Shown: in pieces, positions 5,848 through 14,824 of the stretch | How the letters are laid out: every line of letters begins with the position of its first letter | How positions within the stretch are numbered: position 1 is the first letter of the stretch | Source: Myxococcales bacterium | Lineage (GTDB): Bacteria > Myxococcota_A > UBA9160 > UBA4427 | DNA: 44,085 nt | Reading direction: 5' to 3' | NCBI GenBank assembly: GCA_012959665.1 | Contig: DUCT01000020.1 | Location: 1-44,085 of the forward strand | Notes under the pieces: generated by a model | Database searches by the model: none | What the model saw: only the letters and a program-made list of their open reading frames with translations | What the model was told of the DNA's origin: nothing | Made by a program: the position numbers and the translations under genes

Positions 5848-7191
5848 GTGGCAATCTTCAAGGCCTACGACATCCGAGGAGTCGTTCCCGGAGAGCTGGA
5901 CGCTGAGATCGCCTACGGGGTCGGGCGGGCCACGGCTCATTTCATTGGTGCCGAGCGGCTTGTCGTGGGGCGGGATGCCCGGGTCCACTCGCCTGAACTC
6001 TGCCAGGCTCTGATTCGCGGCATTACCGACGAGGGCGTTTCAGTCATTGACCTGGGCTTGGCGGCAACGCCCATGGTCTACTTTGCTGTGGCAGACCTGG
6101 CCGCCGGGGGCGGCGTGATGGTGACGGCATCCCACAATCCTGCGGAGTACAACGGCTTTAAAATCTGTCGTGAGAAGGCCATTCCCATCGGTGAGGCGAC
6201 GGGGCTTAAGGAAATTGAGGCGCGGGTGGCCGAGCGTGTGACGGCTGCGTCCGCGGCCCGTCTCGGCACCGTTGAACAGCGAGATGTACGAGTCGGCTAC
6301 GCGAGCCAGGCTCTTTCGGTGGGCGCGGGGCGTCCATCGGCGCGGGTTGCCATCGATTGCGGCAACGGGATGGCGAGCGTTGGCCTAGAGCCGGTGCTCG
6401 ATCGCTTGTCCCTAACCGTGGAACGCCTGTACTTCGAACCGGATGGGACATTTCCCAACCACGAGGCGGATCCGCTCAAACTCGAGAACCTGTCCGAGGT
6501 CTCAGACGCTGTGCGCCGGGTGGGGGCCGACTTTGGCGTGGCGTTCGACGGCGATGCCGATCGAGCGGTTTTCGTCGATGAAGGGGGGCGTCCCATCGCC
6601 TCGGATTTGATGACCGCCGTCATGGCGCGTCACCAACTCGCTCGAAAGCCCGGCGGTCTCGTGCTCTACGATCTGCGGTCGAGTCGAGCCGTAGCCGAGG
6701 AGGTCGAAGCGGCGGGGGGCCGGGCCGAGATGTGTCGCGTCGGCCATTCCTTCGTGAAGGCTCATATGCGCGAGTCCGGAGCGGTCTTCGCCGGGGAACT
6801 CTCAGGCCATATCTATTTTCGGTTTCCCAATGACCTGATTGCTGATGATGCGATCGCGGCTTTTGTCGCGCTTCTGGATGTTCTTGATGTCGAGCGACGT
6901 CCTCTTTCGGAGATCATCGCTCCCCTACGCCGATACCATGCCAGCGGCGAGATCAACCGTCGGGTTCGGGATACGGGAATCGTGCTGGAGACGATAGAAC
7001 AGGAGCATTTGGGGGCTCCATCGGTGTCGAAACTCGATGGCCTTCGGGTGGGCTATTCGGACTGGTGGTTCAACCTGCGACCTTCGAATACCGAACCCGT
7101 GCTGCGGCTGAACCTAGAGGCCGATAGCGAGGCGAAGATGGTTCTGGAGAGAGACCGGATTCTCGCGCGGGTCGAGGAACTCGGCTCCTGA
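5848..7191 (+). CDS. phosphomannomutase/phosphoglucomutase
   Basis: 447 aa; 'KAYDIRGVVPGELD', 'VTASHNPAEYNGFK', 'FDGDADRAVFVDE', 'RPSNTEPVLRL'. Confidence 0.95.
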   Translation: MAIFKAYDIRGVVPGELDAEIAYGVGRATAHFIGAERLVVGRDARVHSPELCQALIRGITDEGVSVIDLGLAATPMVYFAVADLAAGGGVMVTASHNPAEYNGFKICREKAIPIGEATGLKEIEARVAERVTAASAARLGTVEQRDVRVGYASQALSVGAGRPSARVAIDCGNGMASVGLEPVLDRLSLTVERLYFEPDGTFPNHEADPLKLENLSEVSDAVRRVGADFGVAFDGDADRAVFVDEGGRPIASDLMTAVMARHQLARKPGGLVLYDLRSSRAVAEEVEAAGGRAEMCRVGHSFVKAHMRESGAVFAGELSGHIYFRFPNDLIADDAIAAFVALLDVLDVERRPLSEIIAPLRRYHASGEINRRVRDTGIVLETIEQEHLGAPSVSKLDGLRVGYSDWWFNLRPSNTEPVLRLNLEADSEAKMVLERDRILARVEELGS

Positions 7192-7218: not shown

Positions 7219-8292
7219 TCACCCCTGGGGTCTGGCGATTTCCTCCTGGATGAGTTCGTCAAAGGCCTCGATGGGTTGGGCGCCGCTCAAGAATATGCCG
7301 TTGACGAAGAAAGCGGGCGTTCCCGAAGCCCCGAGTTGTGCGGCATCCTTGAGGTCTGTGGCGACCAGCGCCTCGGTTTCCGGGGCGCTCATGCAGGTCT
7401 CAAACTTTTCCATATCCAGGGCCAAGGTCGTCGCGTAGCCGGAGAGCTGCTCGCGCCCAAGGGCTCTCTGGTTGGCGAAGAGAAGGTCGTGGTATTCCCA
7501 GAAGCGGTCTTGATTTCCCGCGCAGATCGAGCCGTAAGCAGCGATTCGCGCGTTGTCGTGAAAGCTCAAGGGAAGGTGACGAAAAACGATTCGGACCTGC
7601 TCGGGATACCGGGCGGCGATTTCCTTCATTGTCGGAACGACTTTTGAGCAATAGGGGCATTGGAAATCGCTGAACTCGACAATGGTTACCTGCGCGGTTT
7701 CGGGTCCGAGGGCGTAACCGAGGGGCGCAACGGTCTTCCTCTCCCTGGGAAGCGAAACCACTACGGTTGCTTCGTCTCGGAGTCCTTCGCGAATGCTCGT
7801 CTCCCTGATCTGACCGAGGTATTCACGAATCGGAACCACCAGAGTCTCGAGGGTGGTTCCTGGGGCAAAGCGATTTTGATTCTCTGTATAGAATGTCTGG
7901 ACTTCAGCGTCCGTGACTTCGGGAAGTTCCGTGATTCTCGCGGTCATCCATTCCGTCTCACTCAGCTGGGCGGTCGCGGCTTCTCGCGCAATCAACCTTT
8001 CGTCGATGATTTCGTTGATGGTTTGGCGTCGAGCTTCGTACAGCGCGGCATCACCCTTGCCACCGGGAAATTTTTCGGCGAAGAGGCTGTCTTTGATTCG
8101 CCGGTCGACGTCCTCTAGGGCGATGGGATCGCCGTTGACCAGAGCGATGGGAGGCTGGTCGGAAACGGAGTCATCGTTCGCGTTATCTCCTGCATTTGCG
8201 CAGGCGAGTACCGCGACGAGGCCGAAGAGCACGGTCACTAACCCGGCGACTTGTCGAAGACGGGTGGTGTACTTTCTAATGGATCGCTTCAC
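7219..8292 (-). CDS. lipoprotein with SurA/PpiC-like N-terminal and DsbA-like thioredoxin (CPYC) domain
   Basis: Lipobox 'VLAC'; 'VNGDPIALEDVDRRIKD' SurA-N-like; 'VEFSDFQCPYCSKVVPTMKE' thioredoxin motif. Confidence 0.87.
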   Translation of the reverse strand: MKRSIRKYTTRLRQVAGLVTVLFGLVAVLACANAGDNANDDSVSDQPPIALVNGDPIALEDVDRRIKDSLFAEKFPGGKGDAALYEARRQTINEIIDERLIAREAATAQLSETEWMTARITELPEVTDAEVQTFYTENQNRFAPGTTLETLVVPIREYLGQIRETSIREGLRDEATVVVSLPRERKTVAPLGYALGPETAQVTIVEFSDFQCPYCSKVVPTMKEIAARYPEQVRIVFRHLPLSFHDNARIAAYGSICAGNQDRFWEYHDLLFANQRALGREQLSGYATTLALDMEKFETCMSAPETEALVATDLKDAAQLGASGTPAFFVNGIFLSGAQPIEAFDELIQEEIARPQG

Positions 8293-8356: not shown

Positions 8357-8989
8357 TCAGCCTCGCAGAATCCTCAGAAATCTGGCGAGTACTGGGGGCG
8401 CACTCTCGCGCCCGATAGCTTTCTCGGCTTGTCCCTGTCCCTGTCGGTGGCGAATAGCCTCGTTCGCCCGGGTGGATGAGGCCTCGCCCTGACTGTTGGC
8501 TGAGGGGATCGGCGTGAGAGAGAACTCGAGATGGAGGATTCGGAGGGGATCGATTTCCCGGATGGCCGCAGTCGCGTCGAGCAGGCAGCTGAATTCTTCT
8601 TCGGCTTGGGCGAGGAACTGACGAATGAGTACCGAAGGCTCCCCTGTTCCTGTTTGGGCGAGTTCCGCGAGGAGTTGGCGGCTCATCTTTGGACTGCGCC
8701 GAGAACCCAGAAGCGGCCAGTTCGATTGAACGGTGGCGATTCCTCGGGCGAGACAGCGTTCGGCTTCGGGGCTCGGGCTTTCCTGGTCGGCATCGTCGAT
8801 GAATATCGCCAGGGGGTAGGGCGGTGCGCTCTCCACAGGAATTCGGACCCGGGCGGTCACTCTTTCGCCCCGCGCGGTGAATTCCAGTCGCTGGCCAAGC
8901 GAGAGCGGGCCGGGGGTGAGCGAGACCGAGAGAGCTCCTTGGCTTTGGGGTTGAGCCGGGTGGGTAAGGCTGAGTCTCCGGGTGGGCAT
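8357..8989 (-). CDS. hypothetical protein, possible degenerate alpha/beta-hydrolase fold
   Basis: 210 aa; 'YPLAIFIDDAD...ARGIATVQSNWPLLGSRRS...DATAAIREIDPLRILHLEFSL' parallels dienelactone-hydrolase-like proteins but lacks the GxSxG elbow. Confidence 0.6.
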   Translation of the reverse strand: MPTRRLSLTHPAQPQSQGALSVSLTPGPLSLGQRLEFTARGERVTARVRIPVESAPPYPLAIFIDDADQESPSPEAERCLARGIATVQSNWPLLGSRRSPKMSRQLLAELAQTGTGEPSVLIRQFLAQAEEEFSCLLDATAAIREIDPLRILHLEFSLTPIPSANSQGEASSTRANEAIRHRQGQGQAEKAIGRESAPPVLARFLRILRG

Positions 8990-9067: not shown

Positions 9068-9727
9068 TCAGCGCGGCAACAGCAACTTGCGTGCGCGATA
9101 GAGATTTGACTTGATCGCGTCCTCGGACTTCTTGAGCTTTGCAGCAATTTCGCTTATGGGGCGGTCGTCGATGTGGTGCAGGCGAAAGAGCATGCGCTGC
9201 TCATCGGTGAGTTTGTGGGCAGCGGAACTCATTTCCTCGATCCGCTCCTGGCACTCGTATTCCTCCAGCGGAGTGGGTCGAGTGCTGGCGTGGGCGGTGT
9301 TGCTCTCGGAGTTCTCTTCCATCAGAGGAACCGTAGGATGGCGCTTGCGCTTGAACCGGCTGGCGATCACTCGGCGAGTCACGCCGAAGATCCAGGCCGA
9401 GAACGGGGCTTCGCCCCGGTAGGAGTCCAGACAGGAGAAGACGGCGATAAACACCTCTTGGGTCGTCTCTTCCACATCGGCTCGAATGCCCATGCGTCGA
9501 TCGATAAAGCGGTATATGCGCTTGAAATACCGCTCGTAGAGGATCTCGAATGCTTCGCGATCGCCCTTGCGGACCTTGTCCACAATTTCTAGGTCGCTGC
9601 ATTCCTGCACGGGCTGATTGGCCGATGCCGGGCCCACTGGGCAGGCACTCGGTGCCGAGCTCTCGGTGGGCGCGTGTTGCGGAGCCCCACTGGGCTTCGT
9701 TTCGTTCCTGTTTGCCTGTTCTCGCAT
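9068..9727 (-). CDS. ECF-type RNA polymerase sigma factor
   Basis: Sigma region 2 'YERYFKRIYRFIDRRMGIRADVEETTQEVFIAVF...YRGEAPFSAWIFGVTRRV' and region 4 'LTDEQRMLFRLHHIDDRPISEIAAKLKKSEDAIKSNLYRARKLL'. Confidence 0.92.
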   Translation of the reverse strand: MREQANRNETKPSGAPQHAPTESSAPSACPVGPASANQPVQECSDLEIVDKVRKGDREAFEILYERYFKRIYRFIDRRMGIRADVEETTQEVFIAVFSCLDSYRGEAPFSAWIFGVTRRVIASRFKRKRHPTVPLMEENSESNTAHASTRPTPLEEYECQERIEEMSSAAHKLTDEQRMLFRLHHIDDRPISEIAAKLKKSEDAIKSNLYRARKLLLPR

Positions 9728-9939: not shown

Positions 9940-10542
9940 CTACTCGCCCAGGGATTCTTCGGTATCGGATTTGAGTCCGAGGTCGCTGTCTCTCAGATTG
10001 CTCCGGAAGGCGGGTAGTGGCGGGGCGGTCTCCGGTACGGTGAATTTCCTGACCGGGCCTTGTTGTCCCTCCGGGCTCGAAGGGCCTCTGGAGCCGACGG
10101 TTTCCAGTAGGAGGCCCGAATGGGGTCCAGCTCGCACAGCGGTGTACCGGACCAATTGGACGATGCCCGCGCGTAGGCTGCGGGATGCGGCTCTGGTTTC
10201 TGTCGCGAAGCTCGGGGCCAGCAGGATGGCTCGAACCGGTGTGTCTGGAGAGATTTTCAACTCGGGTGCGAGCTTGGCCCAGTCCCCCACGCGCGCTGCA
10301 ACCCATGCACGCTGGGCGAGGGAACGGGTTAAAAGCGCGGCATCACTTTCGCCCTCTAGGGCCAGCAGCATCAGGATCACGTCGCCGTGATCGTTGACCG
10401 TCACCAGATCGATGGGCGAGGCCAGTCCCATGATGTTTTCCGCGATTACGCGAAGTCCCGGATCCAGCTGGTGGAGTTGTGCCTTTACCCCTCTTCGTAG
10501 GTAGTCGATGGATAGGGGCTGGGTTTTTTGAATTTCGGTCAA
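9940..10542 (-). CDS. hypothetical protein, possible degenerate NucS/PD-(D/E)xK-like nuclease fold
   Basis: 200 aa; 'QLDPGLRVIAENIMGLASPIDLVTVNDHGDVILMLLALEGESDAALLTRSLAQRAWVAAR...PVRAILLAPSFATET'; start overlaps the end of the upstream gene (10539-10542). Confidence 0.6.
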   Translation of the reverse strand: MTEIQKTQPLSIDYLRRGVKAQLHQLDPGLRVIAENIMGLASPIDLVTVNDHGDVILMLLALEGESDAALLTRSLAQRAWVAARVGDWAKLAPELKISPDTPVRAILLAPSFATETRAASRSLRAGIVQLVRYTAVRAGPHSGLLLETVGSRGPSSPEGQQGPVRKFTVPETAPPLPAFRSNLRDSDLGLKSDTEESLGE

Positions 10543-11333
10543 GGCAGTCCCCGGAGCATGTCGGTCAGCAGGAGTTGGGCTACGTCGCGAAGAGCCCTTG
10601 CCGCGGGGGATTGGGGGTGGGCGAGGCCGATGGGCCTTTGGGCCACGATGGCTCGGTAGACATGCAGGGCGTCGACCAGAAGTCCGTAGCTCTGCACATC
10701 ATGTCCGAGGTTCTTGCGAGCGGCCTGGGCTATACGAGCGAAGGCCGTCTCGGCTTCCGCGCGGCACTCGGCGCCGTGGATTGTGATTCCCACTCGGGCC
10801 TGGGACTGCTTTTGCACGATGGCTCTGGCAGTTTTCAAGGTGTCCTGTAGGTCCGAGGTTTTGGACGAGGTGAAGAGCAGGGTCCAGCGAAGGAGCGCGC
10901 AATTCTTCCACCCGGCGTCGAGCCACGATGGCGGGATGCGGACAAAGATCAGCCCGCCTTCGGCTCCGCCACGCGCCCCCGCGGCGGCCTCTCGGGCAAT
11001 CTGATCGAGGCTCTTGAGATCCTTCGCCAAGGTTGGTCGAAACTCGACGCCCAGAGGGCCCGCACCGGCCTGGGGCCAGAGGGGAGAGGGGCTGACATCG
11101 TCGGGTGAGATGACCAAGGCGTCCCCCCCGAGGCGTGCCACCTCTACGGCGAGGTTCCACGTGAAAGCCGCGCGAACTACGTCCCGGTCGCCGATGGGAA
11201 CGCCGACGATTTGAGGCGGTGAGGGTTGCGAGGAAGGTCTCGGTTCTTTTTGGGCAAGCCTACCCTCGGGCGCGTCCGGCTTAGCCAGTTCGGGTCCGAA
11301 GTGATGAAGGACGTCGGCGAGGTTGCGAGGCAA
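10539..11333 (-). CDS. ParA/MinD-superfamily-like protein lacking a Walker A motif (pseudo-ATPase)
   Basis: 264 aa; 'IVGVPIGDRDVVRAAFTWNLAVEVARLGGDALVISPDD' aligns to the GKGGVGKT region of MinD/FlhG without the P-loop; C-terminal 'RPIGLAHPQSPAARALRDVAQLLL' resembles MinD/FlhG tails. Confidence 0.65.
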   Translation of the reverse strand: MPRNLADVLHHFGPELAKPDAPEGRLAQKEPRPSSQPSPPQIVGVPIGDRDVVRAAFTWNLAVEVARLGGDALVISPDDVSPSPLWPQAGAGPLGVEFRPTLAKDLKSLDQIAREAAAGARGGAEGGLIFVRIPPSWLDAGWKNCALLRWTLLFTSSKTSDLQDTLKTARAIVQKQSQARVGITIHGAECRAEAETAFARIAQAARKNLGHDVQSYGLLVDALHVYRAIVAQRPIGLAHPQSPAARALRDVAQLLLTDMLRGLP

Positions 11334-11342
11334 GCGCAGAGA

Positions 11343-12431
11343 CTAGCGGACGTGGAGAACTGAGTTGGTCTGTCCCATCGGTCCTGCTGAGCTGTTCTGA
11401 TTCGCTGGGTCAACCCTCCACTGGCCGTCTACGAAATAGCGGTATTGGTAGGTTCCGGGCGGCAAGCTCAGCACTTTGACCCATACCCGTGTTCGCCCCT
11501 CGGCTTCGACTCGGGAGAGGACGTTCCGGTCGGGCACCCAGTCGTTGAAGTCGCCGGCAATTCTCACGTCGCCGGCATCCGAGTCCCGGTATTCCACCAC
11601 GACCTCCCGCTTCTCTGGGTTGCTCGATTCCGCGTTATCGGCGGTGGTTGAGGCGACGACTTGTGGTCCACCCAAACTCACCTCCATGGCCAAGGCCGCG
11701 TAGTCCAGAGCGCCATTGGCCTTTGGCGCATATAGGCTGATGGGTTTGCCGTTTTGCGCGGCTTCGCGAATTTTTACGTTGAGTCGGACGACCGAGTCGA
11801 AGCACAGATCCCGGAAAAGCTCCCTGATTTCGCCCAGGGTTTCGCGGGCATAGCGTGTTCGCCCGTCGTAGAGAGTCGGCAGTACTCGAACCGAGAGGGA
11901 GTGCCCGACACGGTCCATCAGCAGGGAGATCGTCTCGAGGAGCTTTTGGACACCGTCAACGGCAAAGGAGCTGGTTTCCAGCGGTACGATGACTTCCTGG
12001 GAAGCCCTCAAAGCATTGAAAGTCAGGAGGCTGACTGCGGGTGGGCAGTCGATCAGGATGAAGTCGTAGTCGGGCTTGAGGGAATCCAGCGCCCGAGAGA
12101 GCCTCTCGGTGCGCGCCTCTTGGTGTTCTGCAGCGAGTTTCTGCTCAAGGGCCGAGAGCACGATTCCAGCAGGCGCAAGATCGACTCCGTGGGAGACATT
12201 GAGGATGATTCGGCTGAGTGCGGTCGCTCCGGCGGGTTCGACGAGAACCTCGTAAAGATTCTCGTCGAGTTCGTCCGGGTTTATGCCGAGCGCAAGGCTT
12301 GCGTGGGCCTGGGGATCCATGTCAACCACCAGAACAGAGAAGCCGTCTGCCGCCAAAGCACCGGCAAGGTTCACCGTCGTCGTGGTTTTCCCGCAGCCCC
12401 CTTTTTGGTTGACGATGCTGATCGTTCGCAT
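11343..12431 (-). CDS. ParA-family ATPase fused to C-terminal AMPK-beta/CBM48-type glycogen-binding domain
   Basis: Deviant Walker A 'NQKGGCGKTTTTVNLAGALA', 'VVDMDPQAHA', Walker B 'FILIDCPP'; C-terminal 'VRIAGDFNDWVPD...VWVKVLSLPPGTYQYRYFVDGQWRVDPANQNSSAGPMGQTNSVLHV'. Confidence 0.92.
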   Translation of the reverse strand: MRTISIVNQKGGCGKTTTTVNLAGALAADGFSVLVVDMDPQAHASLALGINPDELDENLYEVLVEPAGATALSRIILNVSHGVDLAPAGIVLSALEQKLAAEHQEARTERLSRALDSLKPDYDFILIDCPPAVSLLTFNALRASQEVIVPLETSSFAVDGVQKLLETISLLMDRVGHSLSVRVLPTLYDGRTRYARETLGEIRELFRDLCFDSVVRLNVKIREAAQNGKPISLYAPKANGALDYAALAMEVSLGGPQVVASTTADNAESSNPEKREVVVEYRDSDAGDVRIAGDFNDWVPDRNVLSRVEAEGRTRVWVKVLSLPPGTYQYRYFVDGQWRVDPANQNSSAGPMGQTNSVLHVR

Positions 12432-12618: not shown

Positions 12619-13188
12619 TCAAGCCCCTTTCAATGAGCGCTTGTTTTGCTCGGCTGACGTTGCTCGCTTTACGCTCCGAGGGACGTGTAGTGCGCGCCAT
12701 GCATCGAGTTCGCGCCGAAAGTCACCCACTCGAAATATCCACTCACCTCCCCGAATGGCACGAACATCGCTGCCCTCGCTGAGGACCAACAGCACATCCC
12801 CTGTGGCCACGAGGGTTATTTCTCGGGACCTCCACGCGACTTCCGGGAGAATTTCTCGTAGGGCCTGAATGCTGCTCCGGATTCGCTGGACTGAAACCCC
12901 GGCGTCGATCAAGCGCTTGGCGGCCTTGAGCGCAATCAGGTCCTCGAAGGTGTACCTGTGGTGCCCCCCTTGCGTCCTGATAGAAGGTCGCACCAGATTG
13001 GTCTGCGCCCAGTACTGCAACTGGCGCCGGGAAATGGCAAGCAGTTGCAGCACGTCCCGGGTCCTGAAAATTGCCGGGTCCAAGGGGTCGCTTTCAGGCT
13101 GCACTGGAGATTTGGGCAGTGAAGGCTGTTTCGCGCGATTCTGCCACGCGTCGTATCGCGCTCTAGTAGAACGACCTGCGGAACTCAA
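12619..13188 (-). CDS. MerR-family transcriptional regulator
   Basis: 'FRTRDVLQLLAISRRQLQYWAQTNLVRPSIRTQGGHHRYTFEDLIALKAAKRLIDAGVSVQRIR' HTH. Confidence 0.88.
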   Translation of the reverse strand: MSSAGRSTRARYDAWQNRAKQPSLPKSPVQPESDPLDPAIFRTRDVLQLLAISRRQLQYWAQTNLVRPSIRTQGGHHRYTFEDLIALKAAKRLIDAGVSVQRIRSSIQALREILPEVAWRSREITLVATGDVLLVLSEGSDVRAIRGGEWIFRVGDFRRELDAWRALHVPRSVKRATSAEQNKRSLKGA

Positions 13189-13429: not shown

Positions 13430-14824
13430 GTGACGGGCCAATCATCGGTGGTGGGCCTTATCGCCCCCACGCCATCGACTGGCCCATTGACTGGCCAATC
13501 GGATCACGTGTCGTTGAGTGCCAGCGGGTACCGCGCTTGGTTTGAGCTGGGACAAGAGGGAGCATTTTTGCCAGGCCCCAAGGCGGTTACTGATTCTGGG
13601 ATCGATGCGACGACCGAGGGTGCCGACTCGACGAAAGAGTTGCGTCGCGAATTGGCTTCGATGAACTCTGAGCAAGCCGAATCAAGGGTTCTGGTCGTGG
13701 AGGGCTCGGGGGTTGCCCGTCCCTATATGCGGGGGATCATGGTCCATGCCCTGATGGCGAAGGGAGTCAGCTTTGACGATGCCTATTCTGCAGCCCAGAC
13801 AGTGGCGGCACAGATTGAAGGCCGCGGAACAGTGGAGCGAGTCGAGTTGAGCAAAATCGTCAAGGAGATCTTGGGCGACGCCCCTGAAAACGAGCCACCC
13901 ATTCCACTGCCCACCGCGATACGAGTTGTGGGTAATCGGGGGAGTACCCATTTCTCAAAGGGCACTTTGTCCCAGAGTTTGCTGGCGGCTTCCCTGGTGC
14001 CCGATGATGCGTTTGAGGTCGCTCGTCAAATTGAAACGGGGTTGATCCTTCAGGGGCGAGATGAGGTCTCCCAGGCCGACTTGCGAGAACTGGCCTTCGA
14101 CGCGCTGCTGGATCGCTTTGGCGAACGCGTGGCCGAGCGCTACTTGGTCTGGCGGGAGTTCGAGGAGCCCGACAAGCCTGTGATAATTCTGCTTGGTGGG
14201 ACGGCGGGTGTGGGCAAGACCTCATTGGCGTTGGCTGTTGCTCAGCGCCTGGGTGTCAGCCGAATGCTTTCGACGGACTCGATTCGTCACATTATGCGAA
14301 TCATGCTGTCCGCTGACTTGGTTCCGGCGATCCATGTCTCTTCTTTTGACGCCTACCGTGAACTGCCGGCGCTGGGCCACGAGGACGATCCCGTGATTGA
14401 CGGGTTTCTTTCCCAGGCGACAACCGTTTCGGTGGGGGTACGCGCGATGATCGATCGCGCCATCGAGGAGAATACCAGTCTAGTGCTCGACGGAGTTGCC
14501 TTGGTGCCAGGTTTGATCGACCTGACGGAATACGCCGATCGGGCTCACGTTTTCTTTCTCATGGTTGGACTCCTGGATGAGAAAGCTTTCGAGAGCCAAT
14601 TTGAAGCGCGTGCACAACGACAGCGGGCACGGAACGCGGCGCGCTACGTGGAGCGACTCGAAGAAATCCTCAAGATCCAACAGTACCTTCTGGAGCAGGC
14701 GGATCGAAACAATGTGCCAATCGTCGACAATGTCACTGTCGATGGCTCTGCTCTCCTCGTGATCCGGCACGTGGTTGATTCTCTGCGTATCGATTGCGGA
14801 ATCGACTTCGCCAAGCGACTCTAA
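13430..14824 (+). CDS. 2-phosphoglycerate kinase-like protein with N-terminal ATP-cone-like domains
   Basis: P-loop 'PVIILLGGTAGVGKTSLALAVAQRLGVSRMLSTDSIRHIMR'; two preceding ATP-cone-like segments; start codon position uncertain. Confidence 0.83.
   Translation: MTGQSSVVGLIAPTPSTGPLTGQSDHVSLSASGYRAWFELGQEGAFLPGPKAVTDSGIDATTEGADSTKELRRELASMNSEQAESRVLVVEGSGVARPYMRGIMVHALMAKGVSFDDAYSAAQTVAAQIEGRGTVERVELSKIVKEILGDAPENEPPIPLPTAIRVVGNRGSTHFSKGTLSQSLLAASLVPDDAFEVARQIETGLILQGRDEVSQADLRELAFDALLDRFGERVAERYLVWREFEEPDKPVIILLGGTAGVGKTSLALAVAQRLGVSRMLSTDSIRHIMRIMLSADLVPAIHVSSFDAYRELPALGHEDDPVIDGFLSQATTVSVGVRAMIDRAIEENTSLVLDGVALVPGLIDLTEYADRAHVFFLMVGLLDEKAFESQFEARAQRQRARNAARYVERLEEILKIQQYLLEQADRNNVPIVDNVTVDGSALLVIRHVVDSLRIDCGIDFAKRL

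Follow-up and report, generated by a model that had tools for sequence, protein, structure and literature searches.

A ParA ATPase fused to an AMPK-beta-type CBM48 domain: a candidate glycan-linked ParA system in Myxococcota and other phyla

Introduction

ATPases of the ParA/MinD type are known as positioners of DNA, of carboxysomes and chemoreceptor arrays, and of the division site. An open reading frame in the stretch of DNA analysed here (the window, 44,085 nucleotides; contig DUCT01000020.1 of the Myxococcales bacterium assembly GCA_012959665.1) raises the question of whether an ATPase of this type may also act on polysaccharides. The original prediction, made from the letters of the window, held that this single frame encodes a complete ParA ATPase with deviant Walker motifs followed by an AMPK-beta/CBM48-type domain, and that the product could position, segregate or sense glycogen-like granules; HMM searches, an AlphaFold model and a taxonomic survey were proposed as checks.

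Results

Domain architecture of the ParA-CBM48 protein

The reading frame (Table 1) opens with an ATG start that is backed by orthologues, and a Pfam search of its 362-residue product assigned residues 1–180 to AAA_31 (E = 1.2e-50) and residues 277–362 to AMPK1_CBM (PF16561, E = 1.1e-12, 48.4 bits against a curated cut-off of 26.8). Searching PDB sequences with phmmer matched the N-terminal part to ParA/Soj chains (2.5e-44) and the C-terminal part to AMPK-beta CBM chains (4y0g, 2.7e-9), the CBM reaching 2.9e-10 when queried alone. The AlphaFold2 model (mean pLDDT 85.9) consists of two well-predicted domains, the ParA domain and a beta-sandwich (residues 275–361), joined by a disordered, low-confidence linker (residues 258–271). 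In Foldseek comparisons, the ATPase domain of this model was nearest to Soj (9a6n, E = 5.7e-27) and ParA (8ray, E = 2.0e-24), with FleN and BcsQ also among its structural neighbours. Both domains of the original prediction are thus significant in the profile searches and present in the model, the ParA assignment being further backed by motif conservation and the C-terminal one by the AMPK-beta chains. An assembly, frameshift or fusion artefact was ruled out because the same architecture recurs in dozens of independent genomes, so the fusion within one frame stands.

Table 1 Features of the ParA-CBM48 locus, in positions of the window.
Feature	Coordinates	Strand	Basis or remarks
ParA-CBM48 fusion protein of 362 aa; coordinates include the stop codon	11343..12431	(-)	Pfam, PDB phmmer, orthologues, AlphaFold2
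ParA/Soj ATPase domain, residues 1-253	11673..12431	(-)	KGGCGKTT, DMDPQAH, FILIDCPP, DGRTR, NVK
AMPK-beta-type CBM48, residues 277-362	11346..11603	(-)	W298, Y330, R331, W338, N356 at sugar-contact positions
Partner protein of 264 aa with an N-terminal ParB-like motif; its ParA/MinD-like domain is degenerate and lacks Walker A	10539..11333	(-)	
Putative ParA-activating N-terminal motif of the partner, LPRNLADVLHHFGPEL	11286..11333	(-)	Compare LGRGLEDVSHLFLS elsewhere, RRALGRGLGALIS in the host's ParB
Protein X, 200 aa, NucS/EndoMS-like PD-(D/E)XK fold, E-x-K lost	9940..10542	(-)	AlphaFold2, Foldseek, alignment A3
ECF sigma factor, end of conserved gene block	9068..9727	(-)	Gene order only
MerR-type HTH protein, upstream, same strand	12619..13188	(-)	MerR_1 3.3e-12
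Phosphomannomutase/phosphoglucomutase, conserved convergent neighbour in the class	5848..7191	(+)	

The ATPase domain and its place among ParA proteins

Across 141 orthologues, the catalytic residues K10, K15, D39 and D128 are each retained in 140–141 sequences, with the signature lysine of the deviant Walker A motif, the DxD motif and the Walker B aspartate all present. R195, R224 and K241 are the DNA-contact residues of Caulobacter crescentus ParA (CcParA; PMC7229837), and a spacing-based alignment matches them to R191, which is retained in 138/141 orthologues, to K220, which is K or R in 122/141, and to K237, respectively. The ParA-binding motif of Myxococcus xanthus ParB lies at residues 11–19, its central R13 being needed to stimulate ParA, and the ParB peptide is predicted to contact Y81, E82, D110 and E117 of M. 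xanthus ParA (PMC12462528); Y60 (126/141) and E96 (134/141) of the ParA-CBM48 protein match Y81 and E117, which form the predicted pocket for ParB R13. Judged from these residues and from the subfamily signature described below, the protein is a ParA ATPase that is intact and belongs to a separate subfamily, and it would be expected to bind DNA non-specifically and in an ATP-dependent manner. It scores below the BcsQ model TIGR03371 (67.3 bits, cut-off 157.85) and below the bacterial MinD model TIGR01968 (48.8 bits, cut-off 212.9).

The nearness of sequence and fold to Soj/ParA would also suit an ordinary chromosome-partition ParA bearing a decorative domain, a reading that we rejected as very improbable: the genome has its own parAB pair, with KGGVGKT, on another contig (L148), and in a quick tree all ParA-CBM proteins formed one clade against ten canonical ParAs of the same phylum (SH-aLRT 100). 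The subfamily is marked by KGGCGKT and DPQAH, in which C13 of the P-loop is found in 141/141 and H43 in 140/141 orthologues, whereas the outgroup of canonical ParAs has V and N at these positions. The conserved module also has no ParB_N gene; Pfam gave no ParB_N match among the neighbours in the window, and the sole ParB_N gene found in the window's genome (G000) lies on contig C10, beside another ParA.

Distribution of the fusion

The taxonomic survey revealed a class-wide and multi-phylum occurrence that the original prediction had missed. Among 98 relatives, 81 carry the ParA-CBM gene, all within the class (91 sampled, 10 of them non-carriers), while it is absent from the 7 genomes of other Myxococcota classes. 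Nearly all carriers have full-length orthologues (55–84% identity), which are spread throughout the order and a second family of the class; carrier G049 shows a frameshift in the gene and carrier G046 an in-frame stop. Outside Myxococcota, orthologues occur in Omnitrophota, Planctomycetota, Rokubacteria, Eisenbacteria, Latescibacterota, Acidobacteria and others, by the phylum labels of the database records. A strong match (E ≤ 1e-60) was obtained in 75 of 117 sampled Omnitrophota, 59 of the 75 aligning over the full length; 14 Omnitrophota ParAs with shorter or longer frames, for some of which the match ended near residue 250, proved on checking to be mostly ParA-CBM proteins with long linkers. 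The gene is single-copy and conserved in the whole Myxococcota class and in most sampled Omnitrophota. Natural loss of the CBM was seen in G030 (L045) and G031 (L044), which keep the ATPase with no CBM detectable in any frame.

A putative partner with a ParB-like motif

By its N-terminal sequence, the product of the next gene is often a partner carrying a ParB-like, putatively ParA-binding motif with R or K at its centre. In the window, this protein shows a weak match to TIGR01969 (0.0054); a homologue (L088:7150-8079) matches CbiA (1.5e-7), and weak similarity to CbiA is kept in homologues from other phyla. The motif reads LPRNLADVLHHFGPE in the window, PRDLADVLHYFMPE in Myxococcota, LGRGLEDVSHLFLS in Rokubacteria and LGKGLEDISYLFLS in one Omnitrophota genome, and the host's own ParB begins with RRALGRGLGALIS, the LGRGL core of which is identical to that of the partner motif. 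In 49 of 120 loci, a pattern of the form (A/P)-R-x-L-x-D-V-(L/S)-H-x-F is found no more than 320 nt downstream of the ParA-CBM gene, whereas the six-frame ORFs of the 120 loci, 1.9 million amino acids in all, contain only 62 matches; this enrichment is to be read as descriptive because the pattern was drawn from the same loci. It recurs, with variants, in further Omnitrophota examined after the pattern had been made. In the other 71 of the 120 loci the pattern has no match immediately downstream, and the neighbouring gene of many Omnitrophota is a different one.

Protein X itself bears the motif in Rokubacteria and Acidobacteria, by direct fusion and with no pseudo-ParA part, and in other clades the motif sits on the pseudo-ParA, which amounts to a Rosetta-stone link. 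An HMM of the pseudo-ParA was not used for counting, having drifted into ParA itself. The partner motif suggests that ParB-type activation of ParA may have been reused outside DNA partition. In one Acidobacteria MAG, a 613-residue ORF (L110:1370-3208) combines ParA with a truncated CBM, the LGRGL motif and X, and is either a natural fusion or the product of a frameshift between two genes.

Protein X, the surrounding genes and a possible sensor role

A degenerate NucS-like gene commonly follows the partner gene. Its product in the window, protein X (AlphaFold2 pLDDT 87.7), is nearest in Foldseek to NucS/EndoMS (2vld, E = 6.6e-5; 5gke, 1.1e-4), and alignment A3 shows D45 to be nearly invariant and E-x-K to be absent, so that the catalytic D...E-x-K set of NucS is not complete. 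X shares the fold of the NucS/EndoMS endonucleases but is short, lies in a ParA operon and has lost the E-x-K motif; it is probably not an active nuclease because this motif is missing, and as a dead NucS-like protein it would probably serve as a DNA- or partner-binding adaptor.

Across the class, the gene order is ParA-CBM, partner, X and ECF sigma factor; most loci also have an upstream MerR gene, with which the operon may begin. That MerR is a partner of the system in general was rejected, the gene being present in 38 loci and in none outside Myxococcota. A phosphomannomutase/phosphoglucomutase gene lies 4–8 kb from ParA-CBM across the class, and it is uncertain whether it belongs to the system. 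Three further genes of the window are of note in themselves: a 2-phosphoglycerate kinase-like gene with an ATP-cone-like stretch (13430-14824 (+); PRK04220 6.3e-90, below the model cut-off), divergent from the MerR and ParA-CBM genes and retained next to them throughout the class; a gene of the conserved block (7219-8292 (-)) joining a SurA_N-like N-terminal part and a DsbA/thioredoxin C-terminal part in one protein; and, between the latter and the ECF sigma gene, a conserved gene with no Pfam or NCBIfam match (8357-8989 (-)).

The MerR-type and ECF sigma genes that flank the module in Myxococcota would fit a sensor or regulator, in which the CBM would report that a poly- or oligosaccharide is present and determine the nucleotide state of a switch of the ParA type; this switch would control transcription or an enzyme complex, with no cargo being moved. 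FleN and BcsQ, both among the structural neighbours, are likewise ParA-like proteins that regulate rather than position. We nevertheless regard this reading as rather unlikely, since MerR occurs only in Myxococcota, whereas many phyla have kept the ATPase next to other genes, and since the ParB-like motif points to a partner-triggered ATPase cycle.

In a large Omnitrophota clade, the genes upstream of ParA-CBM encode a GH57 enzyme (PF03065, 1.6e-65), a small membrane protein and an alginate-export-type porin. The small membrane protein (L118:5411-5971 and 20 homologues) has an invariant cytosolic N-terminus, EIYDHLAxxYL, which only loosely resembles the partner motif; that it acts as a partner is a guess, and its outer part, which has no Pfam match, is possibly a jelly-roll carbohydrate-binding domain.

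Conservation of the CBM

The original prediction had mapped the glycogen-contact residues of the AMPK beta subunit correctly, W100, K126, W133, L146 and N150 corresponding to W298, R331, W338, M352 and N356. In 116 sequences, the equivalents of W100, Y125 and W133 are invariant (116/116), the K126 position is R or K in most, and the N150 position is N or D in 112. Myxococcota have V, T, A or M at the L146 position, where other phyla have Y or F; the sugar platform may therefore differ. Between genomes of the same genus, dN/dS of the CBM is ~0.05–0.07, with synonymous sites near saturation in most pairs and the cleanest pair (L024-L025) giving 0.029/0.442; the constraint is no weaker than on the ParA domain, and the linker evolves fast. 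The CBM is therefore under strong purifying selection, and its conserved aromatic contact residues suggest that it may bind a glycan.

Is the glycan glycogen?

Searches for GT5, GH13, GH57 and GT35 in the 98 genomes returned no match to GT5, GH13 or GT35 in G000 and four same-genus relatives, in which GH57 gave short, weak and partial matches only, and the window's bacterium seems unable to make glycogen by a known route. Altogether GT5, GH13 and GT35 are missing from 40 of the 81 carriers, every sampled member of the window's genus included, and 23 of the 40 have a genome completeness of at least 90%; canonical glycogen is thus not required for keeping the ParA-CBM gene. Within the class, GT5 is present in 14/81 carriers and 1/10 non-carriers (P = 1), giving no association with ParA-CBM, and the negative relation over all 98 genomes (P = 0.02) is descriptive only, the genomes being related. 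Glycogen granules as cargo in the window's host were accordingly set aside as not supported by these searches, and the host's glycan is probably something other than canonical glycogen.

By contrast, some GT5 match was present in 48 of 50 genomes reached through loci from the scan of labelled database records, strong in carriers from Omnitrophota, Eisenbacteria, Latescibacterota and Acidobacteria and weak in those from Planctomycetota and Rokubacteria. A link with glycogen is possible in other phyla, above all in Omnitrophota, where an alpha-glucan is a plausible ligand; GH57 matches in Myxococcota are mostly weak and partial, so there is no shared link with the Omnitrophota operon. In six Omnitrophota genomes (G110, G128, G131, G135, G136 and G116), GT5-like matches fall in frames of ~8,000 to 39,700 residues, that is, in giant genes.

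Of the granule system first proposed, positioning or sensing through a glycan stays the best guess, but the glycogen-like granules do not hold for a host without GT5, GH13 and GT35. The CBM48 contact residues, the strong GT5 matches in carriers of the four phyla above and the Omnitrophota GH57 neighbour do speak for a system that positions or segregates canonical glycogen granules, the window's organism included; set against the many carriers without GT5, GH13 and GT35, more than half of the 40 being at least 90% complete, and the lack of association between carrier status and GT5 within the class, we consider it improbable.

The same missing enzymes in the window's genus, together with the L146 equivalent not being kept in Myxococcota, would agree with a CBM48 fold that binds no sugar and serves only protein-protein contact or dimerisation. 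This we hold to be quite unlikely, given that the W100, Y125 and W133 equivalents are invariant over deep divergence, that the N150 position is so widely N or D, and that the Omnitrophota neighbour is a glycoside hydrolase. Where bacteria have no known glycogen enzymes, continued purifying selection on the CBM points to an unrecognised ligand.

Discussion

We tentatively favour a ParA-type positioning or tethering switch that recognises its cargo through a glycan; in this view the protein serves as the ATPase in a ParA-type system that has apparently not been described before. The ATP-bound ParA-CBM dimer would bind the nucleoid non-specifically, the CBM would tether the ATPase to a glycan that is borne by a cargo or forms part of a polymer, and the N-terminal peptide of the partner would dock at the dimer interface and trigger ATP hydrolysis and release, the outcome being positioning, partitioning or tethering of glycan-bearing cargo. 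Taken together, the ATPase core, DNA-contact positions, peptide pocket, partner motif and CBM aromatics fit a ParA-type cycle, as far as sequence can indicate. In known ParA systems the link to the cargo lies on the partner, which makes it unusual for the ATPase to bear a CBM. Counting against positioning are the host's lack of a known alpha-glucan pathway and the two genomes, G030 and G031, that lost the CBM yet kept the ATPase; the chief rival readings are a sensor that moves nothing and a CBM co-opted for contacts between proteins.

A broader claim, which we hold as possible but open to considerable doubt, is that the ParA-CBM48 protein, the partner with its LGRGL motif and often the dead NucS-like protein make up a new family of glycan-linked ParA systems with members in at least 7 phyla. 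Such a family would position or partition a cargo that bears a polysaccharide, and in some of the carriers this would be something other than glycogen. If this were true, an unrecognised intracellular or envelope-linked glycan body would await discovery. The ParA-CBM gene offers a testable handle on how bacteria might place or sense polysaccharides, in a Myxococcota class and in Omnitrophota that have little experimental biology.

Machines of this kind are known; what appears to be new is the architecture, how widely it is distributed, and the partner. The open-access literature that we searched contained no ParA fused to a carbohydrate-binding module or linked to glycogen, absence there not being proof of absence elsewhere, and a 2025 review of organelle positioning mentions neither glycogen nor carbohydrate.

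Compared with known systems, the protein is closest to ParA/Soj of ParABS (for example M. xanthus ParA-ParB), with which it shares the ATPase fold, the deviant Walker A motif, the DNA-contact positions, the ParB-peptide pocket and a neighbouring partner with an N-terminal LGRGL-type motif; it differs in KGGC and DPQAH, in its C-terminal CBM48, in a module with no ParB_N/CTPase partner and in being separate from the genome's parAB. McdA/McdB and PomZ/PomX resemble it in their expected way of working, a ParA-type ATPase with a dedicated, unrelated partner acting on non-DNA cargo, but no McdB- or PomX-like gene was noticed at this locus, and to our knowledge neither McdA nor PomZ carries a glycan-binding domain. 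BcsQ, the MinD-like ATPase of cellulose biosynthesis, is likewise a ParA/MinD ATPase linked to a polysaccharide, but it has no CBM, ParA-CBM48 falls far below the BcsQ model cut-off, and no bcs genes were noticed here. The CBM, for its part, shares with that of the AMPK beta subunit (CBM48, PF16561) the domain family, the stacking tryptophans and the K/R126 and N150 positions, and is set apart by its fusion to a ParA ATPase, by the changed L146 position in Myxococcota and by having no AMPK partners.
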